Source of the DNA: Amycolatopsis aidingensis | Lineage (GTDB): Bacteria; Actinomycetota; Actinomycetes; Mycobacteriales; Pseudonocardiaceae | DNA length: 64,000 nucleotides | Direction of reading: 5' to 3' | NCBI RefSeq assembly: GCF_018885265.1 | Contig: NZ_CP076538.1 | Coordinates: 372,001 to 436,000, forward strand | Shown: positions 44,943-58,823 of the stretch, one piece after another | How the letters are laid out: every line of letters starts with the position of its first letter | Numbering within the stretch: the stretch's first letter is position 1 | Notes under the pieces: model-generated | The model's database searches: none | Told to the model about the DNA's origin: nothing | The model's input: the letters and a program-made list of their open reading frames with translations, nothing else | Translations under genes and position numbers: made by a program

Positions 44943-45031
44943 GCTGGGTAACCGTTGTGCGCATGTCTTCCGTCGTTCACCCGTCTGGGTAAGGATGCCC
45001 CGAACGCAACCTTGCGATGAGAGGACAACCC

Positions 45032-47509
45032 GTGACCCTGCCCGCAAGACGTGGCGCCCTCGCGGGTGCCGCCGCCGTCACGATGACCCTGAGCCTGGTC
45101 GCCGCCCCGGTGGTACAGGCAGCGCCGAGTACCGGTGCGGTGATCGCCGAGGTCTACGGCGGAGGCGGCAACTCCGGGGCCACGCTGACCCACGACTTCG
45201 TCGAGCTGACCACGGTCGGCGACACCGGGGTAGCCCTGGACGGCTGGAGCGTGCAGTACCTGCCCGCCGCGCCGAGCGAGCGCAGCCAGTGGCAGGTCAC
45301 CGAGCTCACCGGCAGTGTCCAGCCGGACGGCAGCTACCTGGTCGGCCAGGCCAGGGGCGCCGGCGGCTCGACCCCGCTGCCGGAGCCGGACGCCGAGGGC
45401 CGGATCGCGATGAGCTCCCGCGCGGGCACCGTGGCGCTCGTCGCCGGCACCGCCAAGCTGACCTGCCTGACCGCGGCGGACTGCGCCGCCGACACCCGCA
45501 TCGTGGACCTGGTCGGCTACGGCGACGCCGTGGTGCGGGAGGGATCGCCTGCGCCGGGGACGGACAACACCACCTCGGTCGCCCGCACCGGGCCCGCCGA
45601 CACCGACGACAACGCCGCGGACTTCACCGAGGGCGAGCCGAACCCGCGCAACGCGGCGGGGGAGACCCCCGGCGGGGACGAGCCCGATCCGGTCACCGCC
45701 CGGATCCACGACATCCAGGGCACCACCCGGATCTCCCCGCTGGACGGCGAGCGGGTCACCGGGGTCACCGGGGTGGTCACCGCGACAAGGACCTTCGGCT
45801 CCAGCAGGGGTTTCTGGTTCCAGGACCCGGAACCGGACGCCGACCCGCGCACCAGCGAGGCCCTGTTCGTCTATACCGGCGACACCGGGTTCGCGCTGTC
45901 CCCCGGCGACGCGGTCAGCGTGACCGGCACGGTCAAGGAGTACTACCCGGACTACTCGGAAGACTCGAAGTACCAGTCGCTCACCGAACTCGGTAACGCG
46001 GAGTGGACGGTGACCTCCTCGGGCAACCCGGTTCCGGAAGCCACGGTGATCCAGCCGGACACCGTTCCGGACGAGCTCACCGCGCTGCCGGGCGGGAACA
46101 TCGAGCCGCTGGAGCTGCGGCCGGACACCTACGCGCTGGACTTCTGGGAGGCGCGGGAGAGTGAGCGGGTCAGTGTCGCCGACGTGCGGGTGGTCGGGCC
46201 GAGCACGCGATACAACGAGCTGTACGTGACCACGAAGCCGGAGCAGAACCCCAGCGCCCGCGGGGGCACCGTGTACCTGGGTTATGACCGGCCGAACACC
46301 GGCATTCTCAAGGTGGAGTCGCTGATTCCCTTCGCCGAGCGGCCGTTCCCGCGGGCGAACACCGGGGACACGCTCTCCGGCCGCACCGCGGGCCCGGTGG
46401 AGTACGACCAGTACGGCGGGTACACCCTGTTCGCCAGCGAGCTCGGCAAGGTCACCGACAACGGGCTGGAGCGGGAGACCACCCGCCGCCAGCGCAGCGG
46501 TGAGCTCGCGGTGGCCACCTACAACCTGGAGAACCTCTCGGCGGTCAATGAGCAGGCCAAGTTCGACGAGCTGGCCGGCGGCATCGTGCACAACCTCGCC
46601 AACCCGGACATCGTCACGCTGGAGGAGATCCAGGACGACAACGGCCCGGACGGCAGGGGCGACGGCGTGGTCGGTGCCGAGCAGACCCTTGGCAGGCTGG
46701 TGGCTGCGATCGAGGCCGCGGGCGGCCCGCGGTACGAGTGGCGGCAGATCGACCCCCAAGACCTCGCCGACGGTGGCCAGCCTGGCGGCAACATCCGGGT
46801 CGGCTTCCTGTTCAACCCGGAACGTGTATCCTTTGTGGATCGTCCGGGCGGGGACGCGACCACCCCGGTCGAGGTGGTGACCGAGCGGGGCGAGCCACGG
46901 CTTTCCGTCTCGCCGGGCCGGATCGACCCGGCCAACGCGGCATGGGAGGACAGCCGCAAACCGCTGGTCGGCGAGTTCGTCTTCGGTGGCCGTACGGTGT
47001 TCGTGGTGGCCAACCACTTCGCCTCCAAGGGCGGGGACGAGCCGACCCACGGCCGGTTCCAACCGCCGACCCGTGGCTCCGAGGTGCAGCGGATCAAGCA
47101 GGCGGAAGTGGTCCGCGCCTTCGCCGACGACCTGCTGGCCGCCGACCCGCGGGCCAACCTGGTGGTGGCAGGCGACCTGAACGACTACCCGTTCTCGCCC
47201 GCCGTGCGCACGCTGACCGAGGGCGGCGCGCTGGAAGCGCTGATGAACACGCTGCCGGAGCGCGAGCGGTACAGCTACATCTACGAGGGCAACTCCCAGG
47301 TGCTGGACCACGTGCTGGTCTCGGACGCCCCGCGCGGGGTGGACTACGACGTGGTGCACATCAACGCGGAGTTCGCCGAGCAGGCCAGTGACCACGACCC
47401 GCAGGTGGTCCGCTTCCGCCCGAGCACCGGAAACCCGGTCTCGGACGCGCTGAACGACCTGCTGGACTGGCTGGAGCGTATCTTCGGCTGCCTCCCGCAC
47501 CGGTCCTGA
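45032..47509 (+). CDS. secreted ExeM/NucH-family endonuclease
   Basis: The protein is about 825 residues with a signal peptide (GALAGAAAVTMTLSLVAAPVVQAA). Domains in order: lamin-tail domain (IAEVYGGGGNSGATLTHDFVELTT), a central OB-like region (IHDIQGTTRISPLDGERVTGVTGVVTATR), and an endonuclease/exonuclease/phosphatase domain (VATYNLENLS ... ANHFASKGGDEP ... VVAGDLNDYPFSPAVRTL ... SDHDPQVVRF). GTG 45032 with GAGAGGA is preferred over ATG 45017. It probably degrades extracellular DNA for nutrients or biofilm turnover. It ends at the hairpin before array C. Confidence 0.92.
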   Translation: MTLPARRGALAGAAAVTMTLSLVAAPVVQAAPSTGAVIAEVYGGGGNSGATLTHDFVELTTVGDTGVALDGWSVQYLPAAPSERSQWQVTELTGSVQPDGSYLVGQARGAGGSTPLPEPDAEGRIAMSSRAGTVALVAGTAKLTCLTAADCAADTRIVDLVGYGDAVVREGSPAPGTDNTTSVARTGPADTDDNAADFTEGEPNPRNAAGETPGGDEPDPVTARIHDIQGTTRISPLDGERVTGVTGVVTATRTFGSSRGFWFQDPEPDADPRTSEALFVYTGDTGFALSPGDAVSVTGTVKEYYPDYSEDSKYQSLTELGNAEWTVTSSGNPVPEATVIQPDTVPDELTALPGGNIEPLELRPDTYALDFWEARESERVSVADVRVVGPSTRYNELYVTTKPEQNPSARGGTVYLGYDRPNTGILKVESLIPFAERPFPRANTGDTLSGRTAGPVEYDQYGGYTLFASELGKVTDNGLERETTRRQRSGELAVATYNLENLSAVNEQAKFDELAGGIVHNLANPDIVTLEEIQDDNGPDGRGDGVVGAEQTLGRLVAAIEAAGGPRYEWRQIDPQDLADGGQPGGNIRVGFLFNPERVSFVDRPGGDATTPVEVVTERGEPRLSVSPGRIDPANAAWEDSRKPLVGEFVFGGRTVFVVANHFASKGGDEPTHGRFQPPTRGSEVQRIKQAEVVRAFADDLLAADPRANLVVAGDLNDYPFSPAVRTLTEGGALEALMNTLPERERYSYIYEGNSQVLDHVLVSDAPRGVDYDVVHINAEFAEQASDHDPQVVRFRPSTGNPVSDALNDLLDWLERIFGCLPHRS

Positions 47510-51441: not shown

Positions 51442-51528
51442 CGGAGGATACGGGATTCGAACCCGTGAGGGCTTTCACACCCAACACGATTTCCAATCGT
51501 GCGCCTTAGGCCGCTCGGCCAATCCTCC
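51442..51528 (-). tRNA. tRNA-Ser(GGA)
   Basis: Minus-strand class II tRNA with acceptor stem GGAGGAT/ATCCTCC, anticodon loop TTGGAAA (anticodon GGA at 51494-51492, reads UCC/UCU), long variable arm and T-loop TTCGAAT. Discriminator G, no encoded CCA. Confidence 0.96.
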
Positions 51529-51868: not shown

Positions 51869-51897
51869 TTGACCCTTCCCGGTCGGGTACTCAAGAT
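51869..51897 (+). promoter_or_regulatory. candidate vegetative-sigma promoter of the NRPS cluster
   Basis: TTGACC and CAAGAT are separated by exactly 17 bp, an acceptable HrdB/SigA-type promoter. It would start transcription near 51904, leaving a leader of about 170 nt. Confidence 0.4.
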
Positions 51898-52072
51898 GAA
51901 AGCCGTTCGGTTTTGGCGCGTACCGCGGTATCGGCAGAAGCATCCACGCTGCCACGCCTTACTTGCGAGTGCACCAGTGATCACGGCCTTCCCGTGGCGT
52001 AGCGGGAGCGGGGTCCGATTTGTTGCGGACCTCATTGATTGAAATATGTACCAACAACCCCGAGGAGGGGCA

Positions 52073-52930
52073 ATGCGCCCTGGGCAGAATTTACGGAACA
52101 ATGTTTCAGAAGGTGGCGTAACGCCGCTTATCGGAGTCTTCGACATGTTCTCCGCGTCGGTGGCGGCGCAGCACTACGACGGGTTCTTCGTGTCCGGGTT
52201 CGGCTTCGCCGCGTCGTACTACGGGCTGCCGGATATCGGGTTCATCGCCTGGCCGGACATCGTGAGCTTCGTCCAGCGGCTGCGCCTCGCCTTTCCAGGG
52301 CATCACCTGCTGGTGGACATCGATGACGGCTATGTCGACCCGGAGGTGGCCTGCCACGTGGTCGAGCACCTGGAGGCGATCGGTGCCTCCGGGGTGATCC
52401 TCGAGGACCAGAAGCGCCCCCGGCGCTGCGGCCATGTGGAGGGCAAGCAGGTGCTGCCGCTGCCGGAGTACCTCGAGAAGCTGGAGCTGGTGCTGCGAAC
52501 CCGCCGCGACCTGCTGGTGGTGGCCCGCACGGACGCCACCGAGGAAGCCGAGATCCTGCGCAGGGCCGAGGCGCTGGCGGCGACCGACGCCGACGTCATC
52601 CTGGTCGACGGCGTGCGCAGCGCGGACTGGATCACCAGGATCCGTTCGGTGATCGGGGACAAGCCGCTGCTGTTCAACCAGATCGCGGGCGGGAAGTCCC
52701 CGCGGCTCTCGCTGTCGGAGCTGGAACGGCTCGGTGTGGACGTCGCGATCTACAGCACGCCCTGCCTGTTCGCCGCGCAGTCGGCGATGGACCGGGCGCT
52801 GACCGCGCTGAAGCACAACGACGGCCGGTTGCCGCAGGGCGAGGACCAGGTCGGCGTCGCAGAGTCGCTGCTGCTGCTCGAGCAGAACATCAGCAGGCAC
52901 CACCCGAAGCCGGCGCTGGTCGGCAGCTGA
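52073..52930 (+). CDS. isocitrate lyase/PEP mutase superfamily enzyme
   Basis: The 285-residue TIM-barrel protein contains the metal-binding LLVDIDDGYVDPEVA and the mobile-loop motif LEDQKRPRRCGHVEGKQVLP, where the Cys is the catalytic residue of lyase-type members (K[KR]CGH). Then come DLLVVARTDATEEAEI and PLLFNQIAGGKSPRLS. This favours C-C or C-O lyase or hydrolase chemistry over PEP mutase proper, whose loop is EDK-type without the Cys. GAGGAGGGG precedes the ATG. It is first of three genes with the transporter and the NRPS. Confidence 0.88.
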   Translation: MRPGQNLRNNVSEGGVTPLIGVFDMFSASVAAQHYDGFFVSGFGFAASYYGLPDIGFIAWPDIVSFVQRLRLAFPGHHLLVDIDDGYVDPEVACHVVEHLEAIGASGVILEDQKRPRRCGHVEGKQVLPLPEYLEKLELVLRTRRDLLVVARTDATEEAEILRRAEALAATDADVILVDGVRSADWITRIRSVIGDKPLLFNQIAGGKSPRLSLSELERLGVDVAIYSTPCLFAAQSAMDRALTALKHNDGRLPQGEDQVGVAESLLLLEQNISRHHPKPALVGS

Positions 52931-53003
52931 GGCAATCCGGCGCCAGGGCGGTCCCGGCGCACCAGCCATGCGCCGGGGCCGCCCGGTCCGGGAGGAGGCT
53001 CCC

Positions 53004-54002
53004 ATGATCCATCCACTGAAACACGTGAGTCGGTTTGTCGATCCCTATCTCCTGGCGCTCCTCGGCACGGTCGCGCTGGCCTCGGTGCTGCCCGCGCGGG
53101 GCGCCGGTACCGCGGTCGTGGACGGCGGCGCGGATATCGCGGTCGGTCTGCTGTTCTTCCTCTACGGCGCCCGGCTCTCGCCGCGCGCGGTGGCCGACGG
53201 GGTGCGGCACTGGCGACTGCACCTGGTGGTGTTCGCCAGCACCTTCGTGCTCTTCCCGCTGCTCGGCCTTGCCGCGCACGCGCTGGTGCCCGCGGTGCTC
53301 ACCAGTGAGCTCTACGTCGGGCTGGTGTTCCTGTGCGTCCTGCCATCCACCGTGCAGTCCTCGATCGCCTTCACCTCCATCGCCAGGGGCAACGTCCCCG
53401 CGGCCATCTGCAGCGCCTCGCTGTCCAACCTGGCCGGGATCGTGCTCACCCCGGTGCTGGTCGGCCTGTTGCTGGCCACCAGGGGTGGTATCTCCGCGCA
53501 GCCGATGCTGGACATCGGCGTGCAACTGCTGCTGCCGTTCGCGGCCGGGCAGCTGCTGCGGCGCTGGATCGGGGAGTGGATCACCCGCAACCGGCGGGTG
53601 CTCGGGTATGTGGACCGCGGCTCGATTCTGCTGGTGGTGTACTCGGCGTTCAGCCAGGGAGTGCAGGCCGGGATCTGGCAGCAGTTGCCGGTGCCGCGGC
53701 TCGGCGCGCTGCTCGCGGTCAGCGCGGCGCTGCTCGGGCTGGTGCTGCTGGTCACCAGTGGCAGCGCACGCTGGCTCGGTTTCAACCTCGAGGACCGGAT
53801 CGCGATCGTGTTCTGCGGCTCGAAGAAGAGCCTGGCCAGCGGGGTTCCGATGGCGGCGGTGCTGTTCGCCGACCAGGGCGTCGGGCTGATCGTGCTGCCG
53901 CTGATGCTGTTCCACCAGCTTCAGCTGATGGTCTGCGCCGTGCTGGCCCGGCGCTATGCCAATGCCAGGACGGCGCTCGCACCGGTACCGGTGGCGTCAT
54001 GA
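53004..54002 (+). CDS. bile-acid:sodium-symporter-family permease (SBF-like)
   Basis: The 332-residue protein has about ten membrane spans: YLLALLGTVALASVLPARG, DIAVGLLFFLYGARLS, YVGLVFLCVLPSTVQSSIAFTSIARGN (the discontinuous core helix), FCGSKKSLASGVPMAAVLF and others. This is the SBF-like branch that includes YfeH-type proteins. It probably moves an organic acid or a product of the cluster. GGAGGAGG precedes the ATG. Its stop overlaps the NRPS start (ATGA). Confidence 0.9.
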   Translation: MIHPLKHVSRFVDPYLLALLGTVALASVLPARGAGTAVVDGGADIAVGLLFFLYGARLSPRAVADGVRHWRLHLVVFASTFVLFPLLGLAAHALVPAVLTSELYVGLVFLCVLPSTVQSSIAFTSIARGNVPAAICSASLSNLAGIVLTPVLVGLLLATRGGISAQPMLDIGVQLLLPFAAGQLLRRWIGEWITRNRRVLGYVDRGSILLVVYSAFSQGVQAGIWQQLPVPRLGALLAVSAALLGLVLLVTSGSARWLGFNLEDRIAIVFCGSKKSLASGVPMAAVLFADQGVGLIVLPLMLFHQLQLMVCAVLARRYANARTALAPVPVAS

Positions 54003-57000
54003 CCACCGTCGCCGGGAGGAGTCTGCGCGGCCTGCGAACCGTGTTCGAAGCCACCCGCGCCGTCCGGCCGGATGCCGTGGCGCTGGAGTGCGGGGCGAGC
54101 AGTCTGACCTACGCCGAGCTGGACGTACGCGCCAACCGCCTCGCGCACTACCTCGCCGCGGCCGGGGTGCGGCCAGGCGGCAGGGTCGGCATCCGGCTGC
54201 CCCGGTCGGTGGATGCCTACGTCGCGCTACTGGCCGTGGTGAAGGCGGGCGCGGTCTTCGTCCCGATCGACCCGGCCGCCCCGCCGGACCGGGTCACCTT
54301 CATTGCCGCGGATGCCGCGCTGTCCCTCCTGCTCTGCGCCGAACCGCCCGCGCGCACCCCGCCGTGCCCGGTGCTGCGGATGTCCGAGATCGAGCCGCGG
54401 GTGGCGGGCTACCCGCCCTGGCAACCGGAACCCGAACCGGTACCGGACGCGGCCGCCTACGTCATCTACACCTCCGGCTCCACCGGGAGGCCCAAGGGGG
54501 TGGAGGTGGCCCAGTCCAGCATCATGCACTTCCTGGAGGTGGCGACCCCGATCTACCGGGTGTGCCCCGGTGACCGGGTCTACCAGGGGATGACCCTCGC
54601 CTTCGACTTCTCGATCGAGGAGATCTGGCCGACCTGGGCGGTGGGCGCGACGCTGGTAGCCGGTCCGGAGGGCGAGGGGCGGTTCGGCGCGGGACTCGCC
54701 ACCTTCCTCGCCGAGCGCCGGATCACGGTGCTGTACTGCGTGCCCACCGTGCTGGCCACCCTGGACGCCGAGCTGCCCGCGCTGCGCACCGTGATCGTCG
54801 GCGGGGAGGCTTGCCCGGCTGAGCTGGTACGCCGGTGGAGCAGGGTCGGCAGGCTGATGCTGAACACCTATGGCCCGACCGAAACCACGGTGACAGCTAC
54901 CTGGGCCGAACTGCACCCTGGGCGGCCGGTCACCATCGGCAGGCCGTTGCCCGGATACCGGGTCGAACTCCTTGACGAGCACCTGCGCCCGGTGCCGGAC
55001 GGCACGGTCGGCGAGATATGCGTCAGCGGGCCGGGGGTGGCCAGGGGCTACCTGAACCGGCCCGAGCTGACCGCGGAGCGGTTCCGCCGCACCGAACACG
55101 GCCGGGTCTACCGGACCGGGGACCTCGGGCGGGTGCTGCCGGGCGGGGAGATCGCCTTTCTTGGCCGGGCGGACAGCGAGGTGAAGATCCGGGGGCATCG
55201 GGTGGACCTGCAGGAGGTCGAGGGCCTGCTGCTCGCCGACGATGCGGTGACCGGTGCCGCGGCCAAGCCGCTGTCCGGTGGCACCGGGCTGGCCGCCTAT
55301 GTGACCACCGGTGTCGCGGCCCCGGACCTGCCTGCCCGGCTGCTGGAGCTGCTGCGCCGGAACCTGCCCGGCTACCTGGTGCCCAGTCATCTCGAGGTGC
55401 TGGACACGTTGCCGACGCTGCCGAGCGGGAAGGTCGACCGGGGCGCGCTGCCCGAGCCCGGCGGGGGACGGACGCTCCCGCGCTCAGGTCCGGTCCTCGC
55501 CCCTGCCACTCCCGCCGAGCGCGCGATCGTCACGGTCTGGGCCGAGGTGCTGGACCTCGCGCCCGAGCGGGTGTCGGTGACCGCGGACTTCTTCACCGAT
55601 CTCGGCGGGCACTCGCTGCTGGCGACCACGGTGGTTGGGCGGCTGCGTGCCGAGGGGACGGCGCCAGGGCTTTCGGTTGCCGAGCTGTACGCCAAGCCCA
55701 CGGTTCGTGGGCTGGCAGGCACGATCGAACGGCACGGTCCTCGGGAAAGGACGGTCGAGCCAGACGCTCTCGTACCCCGCCGCGGGGTCGTGGCCCGAGC
55801 CGGGCTGGCGCAGCTGGCCTGCAGGCTGGCCTTGCTGCTCCTGATCGGCGCGCCGGTGGCGGCGGTGGTCGCCGTCCGGGGTGGCGCGCCGGACGCGACC
55901 GTGCTGTGGCAGGGCGGGCTGGTGGCGCTGGCGAGCCTGTTACCGGGTCGGTTGCTGCTTCCGATCCTCGGGGTGCGGCTACTGAGCGCGGGTTTGCGGC
56001 CGGGCGACTACCCGCTGTGGGGCGGTACCCATGTGCGGGTCTGGCTGATCGGGCAACTCCTGGCGCTGGCGCCGCTCGGCTCGCTCGGCGGTTCGCCGCT
56101 ACTCGGCCCGTACCTGCGGGCACTCGGGGCCAGGGTCGGCGCAGGCTGCCAGCTTGCCACCGCTGGGATCACCCTGCCGTCCCTCACCGAGATCGGCGCC
56201 GGCGCCGCGGTGGGCTACGGCGCACGGCTGGAGACGGTGCGGGTGACGGGCGGGGTGCTGACCCTGGGCCACGTCTGCCTCGGCGCACGGGCCTTCGTGG
56301 GCGCTGGTGCCGTGCTGGCGCCCGGTTGCCGGGTGGCAGACGGCGGGCAGCTGGCCGAGCATTCGCTGCTGGCAGCCGGGCAGTCCGTGCCGCCAGGCAG
56401 GCGGTGGACCGGTTCGCCTGCCGCCAGCGATGACCCGGACCCGGTGCTGGCGGCGGTGGAGCGGTTGCCCGCCGTGCCGCCATGGTCCGGCAGGCTGCTG
56501 CTCGGGTTCGCGGTGAGCTGGCTGGCCGTGGAGCTGCTGCCGTTCGCGGCCGCGGTGCCCGGCCTGCTGCTGGTGTGCCGGGCACTGGCCGGTGGTGCCG
56601 GTGCGGCCCTGCTGGCCGCACTGGCCGCGGGGCCGCTGTTCGTGTTCACTACCTGTCTGCTGGTGCTTGCCGGAAAGCACGCCGTGCTGCGCAGGACGCC
56701 GACCGGGATCCTGCCTGCGCGTTCCGCGCTCGGGGTGCGCAAGTACCTCAGTGACAAGTTGCTGGAGATCAGCCTGGCGACCACCCCGACGCTGTACGCC
56801 ACCCTCTACACGGTCGGGTGGTTGCGCGCCCTCGGCGCGCGGATCGGTCCACGGTCCGAAGTGTCCACCGTGGCTCATATCGACCCGGATCTGCTGCGGC
56901 TCGGCGCGGAGTGCTTCCTCGCCGATCAGGTGATGGCCGGGCCTGCCGTCCACCACCGTGACTACCTGGTACTCGGAAACACCACAATGGAGCGACGTTC

Positions 57001-57919
57001 CTTTGCCGGGAACGCCGCGCTCGCGCGGTCCGGCAGCCTGCTCGGCGCCGGATCGCTGGTCGGCGCGCACAGCCTGGCACCGCGGCACGCACCCACGGGG
57101 ACGTCCTGGATCGGCTCCCCGCCGATCCGGTTGCCGCGCCGGGAGAGCAGCCCGGATTTCGCCGAGGAGCTGACCTTCCGGCCCGCGCCGGGGCGGGTGG
57201 CAGGCAGGCTGGCGATCGAGTTCCTCCGGGTGGTGCTCCCGGCCACCGTACTGGCGGTCGCGGTGCTCGGCGGCTTCCTCGTCCTGCTCGCCGCCGGGCG
57301 CTCCGGCGGCCTGCTTGCCGCCGTGGTGCTGGCCCCGGTTTTGCCGCTCGTCGCCGGACTCGCGGTCGTGCTCGTTGTCGTCTGTCTCAAGTGGATCATC
57401 GTCGGGCGGTACCGGCCACGAGTGGAACCGCTGTGGGGAACCTTCGTCCGGCGGACCGAGCTGATCACCGGGCTGTACGAGGCGGCGGCGGTGCCTGCGT
57501 TGCTCGGCGCGCTCGCCGGGACCCCGCTGCTGCCGGTGTTGCTGCGGCTGTTCGGCGCCCGGATCGGCAGGCGGGTGTGGCTGGCCAGCACCTTCCTCAC
57601 CGAGTTCGACCTGGTGCGGATCGGCGACGATGCCGCCATCGGTCCGCTGACCTCGTTGCAGACGCACCTGTTCGAGGATCGGGTGATGAAGATGTCCACC
57701 GTCGCCGTGGGCGCGGGCGCGAGCATCGGACCGCGTTCGGTGGTGCTCTACGACGCGGTGATCGGCGCGGGCGGGAACCTGGACGCGTTGTCCCTCGCGA
57801 TGAAGGGGGAGCGGCTCGAGCCGGGGACCGACTGGCGCGGGATCCCCTGCCGTGCGGTGTTCAGTGCGCCACCCGCATGTCCCGCGCGCGCACCGGTTCG
57901 CCGCAGGCCGGGCAGGTGA
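53999..57919 (+). CDS. Pls/PosA-family membrane non-ribosomal peptide synthetase
   Basis: The 1306-residue protein is nearly the length of epsilon-poly-L-lysine synthetase Pls (about 1319). Order: adenylation domain 1-490 (A3 YVIYTSGSTGRPKG at 154; YGPTETT at 291; A10 LPSGKVD at 474), carrier domain about 505-575 (DLGGHSLL with Ser539), then six membrane helices in three pairs (about 605-660, 830-895, 1070-1132) separating three hexapeptide-like soluble domains (about 665-815, 940-1050, 1160-1290). The family polymerises a single amino acid through side-chain amide bonds. It overlaps the symporter gene by 4 bp. Its 3' end overlaps the convergent HxlR gene by 59 bp. Confidence 0.9.
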   Translation: MTTVAGRSLRGLRTVFEATRAVRPDAVALECGASSLTYAELDVRANRLAHYLAAAGVRPGGRVGIRLPRSVDAYVALLAVVKAGAVFVPIDPAAPPDRVTFIAADAALSLLLCAEPPARTPPCPVLRMSEIEPRVAGYPPWQPEPEPVPDAAAYVIYTSGSTGRPKGVEVAQSSIMHFLEVATPIYRVCPGDRVYQGMTLAFDFSIEEIWPTWAVGATLVAGPEGEGRFGAGLATFLAERRITVLYCVPTVLATLDAELPALRTVIVGGEACPAELVRRWSRVGRLMLNTYGPTETTVTATWAELHPGRPVTIGRPLPGYRVELLDEHLRPVPDGTVGEICVSGPGVARGYLNRPELTAERFRRTEHGRVYRTGDLGRVLPGGEIAFLGRADSEVKIRGHRVDLQEVEGLLLADDAVTGAAAKPLSGGTGLAAYVTTGVAAPDLPARLLELLRRNLPGYLVPSHLEVLDTLPTLPSGKVDRGALPEPGGGRTLPRSGPVLAPATPAERAIVTVWAEVLDLAPERVSVTADFFTDLGGHSLLATTVVGRLRAEGTAPGLSVAELYAKPTVRGLAGTIERHGPRERTVEPDALVPRRGVVARAGLAQLACRLALLLLIGAPVAAVVAVRGGAPDATVLWQGGLVALASLLPGRLLLPILGVRLLSAGLRPGDYPLWGGTHVRVWLIGQLLALAPLGSLGGSPLLGPYLRALGARVGAGCQLATAGITLPSLTEIGAGAAVGYGARLETVRVTGGVLTLGHVCLGARAFVGAGAVLAPGCRVADGGQLAEHSLLAAGQSVPPGRRWTGSPAASDDPDPVLAAVERLPAVPPWSGRLLLGFAVSWLAVELLPFAAAVPGLLLVCRALAGGAGAALLAALAAGPLFVFTTCLLVLAGKHAVLRRTPTGILPARSALGVRKYLSDKLLEISLATTPTLYATLYTVGWLRALGARIGPRSEVSTVAHIDPDLLRLGAECFLADQVMAGPAVHHRDYLVLGNTTMERRSFAGNAALARSGSLLGAGSLVGAHSLAPRHAPTGTSWIGSPPIRLPRRESSPDFAEELTFRPAPGRVAGRLAIEFLRVVLPATVLAVAVLGGFLVLLAAGRSGGLLAAVVLAPVLPLVAGLAVVLVVVCLKWIIVGRYRPRVEPLWGTFVRRTELITGLYEAAAVPALLGALAGTPLLPVLLRLFGARIGRRVWLASTFLTEFDLVRIGDDAAIGPLTSLQTHLFEDRVMKMSTVAVGAGASIGPRSVVLYDAVIGAGGNLDALSLAMKGERLEPGTDWRGIPCRAVFSAPPACPARAPVRRRPGR

Positions 57920-58298
57920 GCCGCGGGGTCACCGTGGTCTCGCAGGCGCGGTGGGTCAGCCGCACCGGCGGGCCCTCCTCGCCGGCCATCCACCGGTCGC
58001 CCCAGGCCATCAGGGACACCACGACCGGGTAGAGGTCCAGCCCCTTCTCGGTGAGCCGGTACTCGAACCGGTCCGGCCGCCGGGCGTAGCGGGTCCGGTG
58101 CAGCACCCCGTCCTCGGTGAGCGCGCGCAGCCGCTCGGCCAGCACCGGTCGCGGCGCACCGGTCCGCCGCTGGAAGTCCTCGAACCGCCGGGTGCGGTTG
58201 AAGGCCTCGCGCAGCACCAGCATGGTCCAGCGCTCGCCGACGACCGACAGGGCGCGGGCCACCGAGCAGTCCTCGTTCCGGATCTCCGACCAGCGCAT
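57861..58298 (-). CDS. HxlR-family transcriptional regulator
   Basis: The 145-residue protein shows the HxlR winged helix: DCSVARALSVVGERWTMLVLREAFNRTRRFEDFQRRTGAPRPVLAERLRALTEDGVL and the wing RRPDRFEYRLTEKGLDLYPVV. A CPACGEPVRARD tail may bind zinc together with upstream Cys. The N-terminal Cys in EDCSV could be a redox or aldehyde sensor as in HypR-like proteins. The gene ends inside the 3' end of the NRPS gene on the opposite strand. It is divergent from the PaaI thioesterase. Confidence 0.92.
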   Translation of the reverse strand: MRWSEIRNEDCSVARALSVVGERWTMLVLREAFNRTRRFEDFQRRTGAPRPVLAERLRALTEDGVLHRTRYARRPDRFEYRLTEKGLDLYPVVVSLMAWGDRWMAGEEGPPVRLTHRACETTVTPRLTCPACGEPVRARDMRVAH

Positions 58299-58373: not shown

Positions 58374-58823
58374 ATGACCGCCGTGGACCCCGCCGGTATG
58401 TCCGGACTGGAACTGCTCCGCCTCGCCAGCACGCTGCCCGAGGAGCAGCGCCCGCCGGGTATCGGTTCGCTGCTCGGCATGGAGATCGAGGAGGTCGAGG
58501 AGGGCAGGGTGGTCTTCGGGCTGCGGCCCCGCCCGGAGTTCGCCAACCCGCTCGGCACGGTGCACGGCGGGATCCCGTCCACGGTGCTGGACTCCGCGAT
58601 GGCCTGCGCCGTGCACACCACGTTGCCCGCCGGTGCCGGGTACACCTCGCTGGAGCTGAAGGTCAACTTCGTCCGCACGATCCGGCTGGACGAGGAGTGG
58701 ATCCGCGGCGAGGGCACCGTGATCCATGTCGGCACCCGCACCGCCACGGCGGAGGGCCGGATCACCGATGCGGCGGGGCGGTTGCTTGCGCACGGCACTA
58801 CCACCTGCATGCTGTTCCGCTGA
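58374..58823 (+). CDS. PaaI-family acyl-CoA thioesterase
   Basis: The 149-residue hot-dog protein contains FANPLGTVHGGIPSTVLDSAMACAVHTTLPAGAGYTSLELKVNFVRTI, the HGG motif and the helix with the catalytic Asp typical of PaaI/4HBT thioesterases. GGGAGGAC precedes the ATG. It hydrolyses an acyl-CoA or aryl-acyl-CoA and is probably controlled by the divergent HxlR protein. Confidence 0.93.
   Translation: MTAVDPAGMSGLELLRLASTLPEEQRPPGIGSLLGMEIEEVEEGRVVFGLRPRPEFANPLGTVHGGIPSTVLDSAMACAVHTTLPAGAGYTSLELKVNFVRTIRLDEEWIRGEGTVIHVGTRTATAEGRITDAAGRLLAHGTTTCMLFR

Follow-up and report, generated by a model that had tools for sequence, protein, structure and literature searches.

Cationic homopolymer synthetases conserve an Asp at place 1 and a Glu at place 3 of the adenylation (A) domain pocket, and the Glu is described as binding the side-chain amine of the substrate (PMC10522769). 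According to the same description, a Phe at place 2 marks the synthetases of poly(diaminopropionate) (PDAP) and poly(diaminobutyrate) (PDAB), where it presumably restricts how long a substrate can be. The routes to diaminopropionate and diaminobutyrate that are laid out in accounts of such systems (PMC4668381, PMC8225329) use enzymes other than those of the isocitrate lyase/phosphoenolpyruvate mutase (ICL/PEP-mutase) type. Here we describe a locus of Amycolatopsis aidingensis in which a nonribosomal peptide synthetase (NRPS) of the Pls/PosA family follows the genes for an ICL/PEP-mutase-superfamily enzyme and an SBF-like membrane carrier. The locus occupies positions 52073-57919 of the 64,000-nucleotide stretch of DNA that was analyzed (the window). 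The explanation towards which we lean, at slightly better than even, is that two modules share one transcript: an organic-acid enzyme-carrier unit and a recruited Pls/PosA synthetase.

Three intact, co-directional open frames on the + strand fill the locus, in agreement with the layout, families and coordinates proposed in an earlier note on this DNA. The first gene (52073-52930, 285 aa) encodes the ICL/PEP-mutase-superfamily enzyme, as judged from Pfam and NCBIfam matches and from the conservation of its relatives. Its ATG at 52073 is preceded by CCCCGAGGAGGGGC. An alternative upstream ATG at 52046 is possible; the start at 52073 is preferred because the median length of the 120 best relatives is 288 aa. 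After a gap of 73 bases follows the gene for the SBF-like (PF13593) carrier (53004-54002, 332 aa), which is assigned by Pfam, by its hydrophobic segments and by its position 3' of the enzyme gene. The carrier gene ends in the sequence ATGA (53999-54002), a 4 bp stop/start overlap with the NRPS gene (53999-57919, 1306 aa). This overlap had also been described before and can be read directly in the sequence. A scan of the + strand found no terminator-like site within the putative operon. A promoter-like box, TTGACC-N17-CAAGAT (51869-51897, + strand), ends about 175 bases 5' of the enzyme gene; a promoter-scan tool did not call a consensus promoter. No RNA element was found 5' of the operon, the sole match at gathering score being a tRNA at 51442-51528.

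The synthetase belongs to TIGR02353, the 'Pls/PosA family' (545.6 bits with a cut-off of 423.1), and also matches the AMP-binding and PP-binding families. Its A domain (54044-55450, + strand; PF00501 and a weak PF13193 match) precedes a carrier (T) domain (55523-55723, + strand; PF00550, 48.9 bits), which carries the phosphopantetheine motif GGHSLL at residues 536-541. Pfam gave no match to a condensation (C) or thioesterase (TE) domain. The C-terminal membrane/hexapeptide polymerisation region, residues 591-1306 (55769-57916, + strand), is delimited by the TIGR02353 match at residues 636-1283, by hydrophobic pairs and by a hexapeptide-repeat match (PF00132) at residues 762-791. Hydropathy places hydrophobic clusters at residues 597-662, 832-897 and 1070-1139, with one more at 1155-1186, and soluble stretches part them. 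Because the hydrophobic clusters alternate with soluble stretches, the previously suggested arrangement of A and T domains followed by three units of a transmembrane pair plus a soluble part holds. The gene also looks intact, since just 6 of 235 near-invariant columns differ in the window NRPS. These are columns in which at least 97% of 117 other sequences share one residue, the 117 being what is left of the 120 best matches once the window NRPS itself and two short sequences are removed.

The pocket of the A domain was read by motif and by the residue spacing published for PosA. It is DFEYIGTVT (D203, F204, E207, Y246, I266, G268, T290, V298 and T299), and D-F-E stands at places 1-3 in all 118 aligned NRPS sequences, window included. 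The window NRPS therefore has, with F204, the Phe at place 2 of PDAP/PDAB-type synthetases. Because the pocket combines the Phe and the Glu of these synthetases, diaminopropionate or diaminobutyrate is the likely monomer, and the product is likely a short-chain cationic homopolymer of one of the two. The genes that flank the NRPS encode the enzyme, the carrier, an HxlR regulator, a hotdog thioesterase and a RecD2-like helicase; no known monomer gene is among them. Six code strings were looked for in the literature, and no printed A-domain code of this NRPS group was found.

An assignment of the window NRPS to the epsilon-polylysine type was rejected, as the pocket that is taken as the polylysine type, DAESIGTVV, sits in a paralogue in the same genome. 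A gene like this second Pls-family one (G000:C1:4788667-4792515) is widespread in the family: among the 30 best Pls-family loci from the first 150 genomes of the family, 23 showed its pocket.

The enzyme and the carrier form a pair that is common without an NRPS. Among the best 80 of 382 enzyme relatives found, with one genome per species, the carrier lies directly 3' of the enzyme on the same strand in 34 loci, while two loci are too short to judge. A survey of the family covered 390 genomes, one per species, with chosen E-value limits of 1e-120 for the synthetase and 1e-70 for the enzyme. The enzyme occurs in 48 of these genomes, and the carrier adjoins it in 22 of the 30 loci examined from them, one being too short. 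The next most frequent neighbour group after the carrier was met at 12 loci in scattered places, and groups with a roughly fixed place at 7 loci or fewer. The pair is thus recurrent, but it is not universal.

The linkage of the NRPS to this pair has a much narrower distribution. Close relatives of the NRPS, as defined by the C-terminal region, were detected in 64 of the 390 family genomes, and 13 genomes hold both the NRPS and the enzyme. The NRPS adjoins the pair in three genomes (3/64 NRPS-positive, 3/48 enzyme-positive), namely the window genome, the genome G206 and Amycolatopsis arida (G009). Of the 64 genomes with a close NRPS, 61 do not have it next to the enzyme, and in 45 of the 48 genomes with the enzyme no synthetase adjoins it. 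Among the best 80 enzyme loci, of which 73 have 6 kb of downstream sequence, A. arida is the only one with an NRPS within 6 kb. The two genes are far apart in Saccharopolyspora rosea (G386) and on different contigs in Longimycelium (G010). Neither the enzyme nor the carrier was found in any of 23 regions around synthetase relatives outside the linked clade. Eighteen of these regions measure about 14-20 kb and five about 7 kb; the latter represent the five other genomes that, when 296 genomes were drawn from across the class, had an NRPS relative with an E-value of up to 1e-250. A cluster fixed in this order beyond one clade was rejected, as adjacency is limited to the three family genomes. The genome-context comparison proposed in the earlier note thus went against a fixed gene order, and the situation which that note regarded as fatal to its idea, NRPS genes standing mostly with unrelated neighbours, largely prevails across the family with the exception of one clade. 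The fact that the pair is conserved without the NRPS, and that the NRPS is mostly found elsewhere, indicates that enzyme and carrier are not polymer-specific.

Within this one clade the arrangement is robust. In a 42-row tree the three linked NRPSs group together with a support of 100, and those of the other two genomes are 84% and 67% identical to the window NRPS over the C-terminal part. Because they form one clade, and because overlap and promoter-like box are kept in all three, the three-gene arrangement is real and has a single origin among the rows compared. Retention of gene order and overlap at these levels of identity argues that the layout is not due to chance. Co-expression of the three genes has probably been selected within the linked clade, since the unit survived there with a conserved overlap and promoter-like box. 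Among the papers listed by literature searches, at the level of titles and abstract openings, none was found that links an ICL/PEP-mutase enzyme or an SBF carrier with Pls, which agrees with the previous impression that such a coupling is undescribed.

Elsewhere, several relatives of the window synthetase (L207:11348-12100, L205:11738-12913 and similar) lie near a BPL_N (PF09825) protein or a membrane HGSNAT_cat/DUF418 protein; one neighbour of each kind was checked by Pfam. We know of no role for either protein as part of a polymer pathway.

The enzyme matches PEP_mutase PF13714 with 102.5 bits (cut-off 31.5). Its catalytic loop EDQKRPRRCGH contains the RRCGH sequence that had been noticed earlier, and Cys119, Gly120 and His121 are invariant in 120 aligned sequences, window included. 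The enzyme thus has the K/R-R-C-G-H loop of oxaloacetate acetylhydrolase (OAH). The metal site is different. The motif DIDDGYVD, with an extra Asp beside the metal site, is present in 120 of 120 sequences and in all 25 sequences of a further alignment that includes Nocardia and Mycobacterium. It stands where 3lye, a solved OAH, has DMDTGYGG, and the D-x-D-T-G-Y-G-G feature of OAH is absent from the enzyme. Because the invariant DIDDGYVD replaces the D-x-D-T-G of the relatives, the enzyme represents a separate subfamily. Members of this subfamily were seen in Streptomyces, Actinomadura, Kutzneria, Amycolatopsis, Nocardia and Mycobacterium. The searches made found no characterised member, and the structure searches no solved relative, from within it.

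Comparisons with solved proteins point to two kinds of reaction. Ser228 is aligned with a Ser of 3lye and 1zlp, while 3fa3 (dimethylmalate lyase) has a Pro there. A Ser marker of oxalate-producing ICL/PEP-mutase enzymes is described at position 281 in PMC3256194, and we infer that it corresponds to Ser228 here. The nearest solved relatives in a single-sequence search are OAH, petal death protein and 2,3-dimethylmalate lyase; a profile query places dimethylmalate lyase on top, ahead of OAH. The best Foldseek match of the predicted model (mean predicted local distance difference test score 80.2) is the OAH 3m0j with a TM-score of 0.75 and 29% identity. With root-mean-square deviations of 5.4-8.2 to the listed matches, the model confirms the fold only. 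No NCBIfam equivalog scored over its cut-off in the NCBIfam scan. An identity as methylisocitrate lyase or PEP mutase was rejected on these scores (prpB, 130.6 versus 354.4; PEP_mutase, 56.9 versus 319.55). We also did not assign the enzyme to OAH, as its metal-site motif differs in 120 of 120 sequences.

The carrier scores 338.1 bits for PF13593 SBF_like (gathering cut-off 25) and just 53 bits for PF01758 SBF, and hydropathy reveals hydrophobic segments. BASS carriers are described as transporting pyruvate, glycolate, pantoate and 2-keto acids in plants and bacteria (PMC10645422). An enzyme that makes or breaks small organic acids would go well with a carrier that transports them.

On this basis the explanation in terms of two modules can be drawn out as follows. 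The first module would be a widespread actinobacterial two-gene unit. Its enzyme may cleave or hydrolyse a C-C bond of a small 2-oxo or 2-hydroxy di-acid, in the manner of either an oxaloacetate hydrolase or a 2-alkylmalate lyase, and the SBF-like carrier would move the substrate or the product through the membrane. In the second module the A domain is predicted to activate 2,3-diaminopropionate or 2,4-diaminobutyrate and to load it onto the T domain; the membrane-embedded C-terminal region would then join the residues via their side-chain amines to give a secreted cationic homopolymer. The synthetase gene was presumably placed once directly behind the carrier gene, in an ancestor common to a small clade of Amycolatopsis type, where the four-base overlap became fixed so that all three proteins would be made together. 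The common transcript may merely time both activities together, and the enzyme and the carrier would have no direct part in the polymer chemistry. If this alone is true, the locus contributes a synthetase that is clearly predicted from its A domain and likely makes a short-chain cationic polymer. It also flags a widely spread and uncharacterised actinobacterial enzyme-carrier pair, the chemistry of which can be assayed directly. Of the proposal of a new poly-amino-acid pathway, the coupled genes stand in one clade; a single pathway is not supported, as the pair recurs without the NRPS.

Several observations weigh against this explanation. At 44 of the best 80 loci and at 7 of the 30 family loci no carrier was found directly 3' of the enzyme, so that not every locus has the two-gene unit. 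The enzyme subfamily has no TGYGG, unlike the characterised members, and its reaction may differ from theirs. Enzyme and close NRPS co-occur in 13 genomes when 7.9 are expected (Fisher p 0.039, uncorrected for relatedness). The ATGA overlap is kept in the window, in G206 (locus L189) and in A. arida (locus L009), and all three have the TTGACC-N17/18-CAAGAT box 5' of the enzyme gene. Finally, A. arida has another gene just 3' of the NRPS, so the three-gene unit outlived changes in its surroundings. This persistence suggests that the three-gene unit is useful as such. A looser form of the box was searched for in the 350 bases 5' of the enzyme match and was present in one of the 80 best enzyme loci, that of A. 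arida.

Chance could have produced the same picture: the NRPS may have landed behind the pair by insertion, in which case the overlap would be no more than an inherited junction without selected benefit. The linkage is found in one clade only and the surrounding locus is partly syntenic, so that simple descent could preserve it. The junction was nevertheless retained while the C-terminal part of the NRPS diverged to 67% identity, and the promoter-like box persisted; we regard accidental neighbourhood as improbable.

A functional tie through acid is no better placed. The enzyme might make an acid (e.g. oxalate plus acetate from oxaloacetate) which the carrier exports; the acid would lower the pH or accompany the polycation, the polymer would thereby accumulate and stay active, and the overlap would keep the doses matched. 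Ser228 at the place of the Ser in OAH and petal death protein, presumably the marker of oxalate producers (PMC3256194), would agree with such chemistry, as would the first rank of 3m0j among the matches of the predicted model and the conservation of overlap and box. The tie to the polymer draws on this predicted chemistry and on the accumulation of epsilon-polylysine in acid cultures. However, most enzyme genes have no adjacent synthetase (45/48) and most synthetases are not beside the enzyme (61/64), DGYVD takes the place of the TGYGG of known oxaloacetate hydrolases, the profile query favours dimethylmalate lyase, and export is only the presumed direction of the carrier. We therefore give this acid or counter-ion coupling a low probability. 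If true, it would show in what way a producer of polycations copes with acidity and counter-ions, a question of practical interest for polylysine-type food preservatives. In its most novel form the operon would be a device that matches acid to polycation. A small di-acid would be produced by an oxaloacetate-hydrolase-like enzyme belonging to a new subfamily and exported through the SBF-like carrier as acidifier or counter-ion, while the coupled synthetase would make poly(diaminopropionate) or poly(diaminobutyrate). A dedicated, co-secreted acid module would then accompany a cationic homopolymer synthetase for the first time; we consider this a long shot.

Adjacency and translational coupling, a precedent in the coupling of the racemase gene pddB to the synthetase in the described poly-D-diaminobutyrate (poly-D-Dab) system (PMC8225329), and an extra Asp (DIDDGYVD, 120/120) that could hold an amine by the metal site would favour the suggestion that the enzyme provides or trims either the monomer or a terminal acid while the carrier exports polymer or imports monomer. 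This suggestion, also made in the earlier note, is doubtful, because the same enzyme and motif occur in many genomes without an adjoining synthetase (45 of the 48 in the family), because the monomer routes described in PMC4668381 and PMC8225329 use other enzymes, and because candidate genes for both routes lie elsewhere in this genome. Moreover, an SBF-like carrier that exports polymers is, to our knowledge, without example.

These candidate genes are members of TIGR00709 and TIGR03945. The TIGR00709 aminotransferase, a source of diaminobutyrate, scored over the cut-off in six of six genomes tried and has no discriminating power. The SbnA-type diaminopropionate synthase TIGR03945 was found in 49 of 64 NRPS-positive and in 189 of 326 other family genomes (Fisher p 0.005, uncorrected for relatedness or genome size and based on a hand comparison of two lists). 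This association could favour diaminopropionate as the monomer and is suggestive at most; it is tempered by the fact that the best-scoring TIGR03945 copy of the three linked species sits in a siderophore-type locus. This locus is conserved (L236, G000:C1:773000-792900; L237 in G206; L238 in A. arida). Alongside an IucA/IucC-type synthetase (Pfam on L238 only) it contains a pyridoxal decarboxylase and an apparent substrate-binding protein, and it resembles a staphyloferrin-B-type siderophore cluster.

Directly 3' of the window NRPS lie the genes for the HxlR-type regulator (57861-58298, - strand) and the hotdog thioesterase (58374-58823, + strand), which are retained in G206 and exchanged for others in A. 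arida. Further upstream (45017-47509, + strand) the window encodes a large protein that has an Exo_endo_phos (nuclease/phosphatase) domain and that also matches, though under the cut-off, the Lamin Tail Domain. A clustered relative of this protein is also present at the G206 locus.

The locus can be compared with known systems gene by gene. The window enzyme has in common with OAH, petal death protein and 2,3-dimethylmalate lyase the fold, the metal Asp pair and the K/R-R/K-C-G-H loop, and its Ser228 matches the hydrolase-marker Ser of oxaloacetate hydrolase and petal death protein. It differs in having DIDDGYVD where these proteins have D-x-D-T-G, and it is at most 29% identical to the solved ICL/PEP-mutase relatives among the structural matches listed. 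The carrier shares its superfamily with BASS/SBF carriers such as PanS, ASBT-NM and plant BASS1/2/5/6, the small organic acid substrates of which would suit the adjacent enzyme; compared by family score alone, it fits best in PF13593 (338 bits) and far less well in PF01758 (53 bits).

The NRPS shares the TIGR02353 family, the domain order and the pocket Asp and Glu with epsilon-poly-L-lysine synthetase (Pls) and PosA. Its pocket, DFEYIGTVT, differs from the DAESIGTVV of the paralogue taken as the Pls type. PosA is described with the pocket DMEHNGTVSK and as a single-gene operon (PMC10522769), whereas the window NRPS adjoins the pair. A further likeness is to the PDAP synthetase of Streptomyces albulus PD-1, which is described, like the window NRPS, with a single A-T module, a membrane region and three tandem soluble domains (PMC4668381); Phe at pocket place 2 is shared with PDAP/PDAB synthetases (PMC10522769). 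This likeness was judged from published descriptions and the pocket rule. In S. albulus PD-1 the monomer is reported to come from NjxA and NjxB, homologues of cysteine synthase and ornithine cyclodeaminase, and none such was seen beside the window NRPS.

The poly-D-Dab system of Streptoalloteichus hindustanus, with PddA, PddB and PddC and a homologue in Amycolatopsis anabasis (PMC8225329), offers another comparison. A. anabasis served as a positive control: at its locus L241 a synthetase with the pocket DFECLSCVS stands immediately before two genes, one of the DAP_epimerase family and one for a class III aminotransferase. The C-terminal part of this synthetase is 44% identical to that of the window (family match G200, taken as A. 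anabasis). A PddA-type system was rejected for the window on this identity, the other pocket and the lack of a DapF-like or aminotransferase neighbour. The adjacency of pddB/pddC-like monomer genes, seen in A. anabasis, is absent at the window NRPS; this feature comes from poly-D-Dab clusters and may not define the PDAP branch. A. anabasis also has the enzyme-carrier pair (L036), at a separate place from its PddA-PddB-PddC-like cluster (L241), and so represents a natural uncoupled control. Both systems have a synthetase of the same family, a Phe-Glu pocket and a translationally coupled partner. This partner is a DapF-like racemase in the poly-D-Dab system and an SBF-like carrier in the window.

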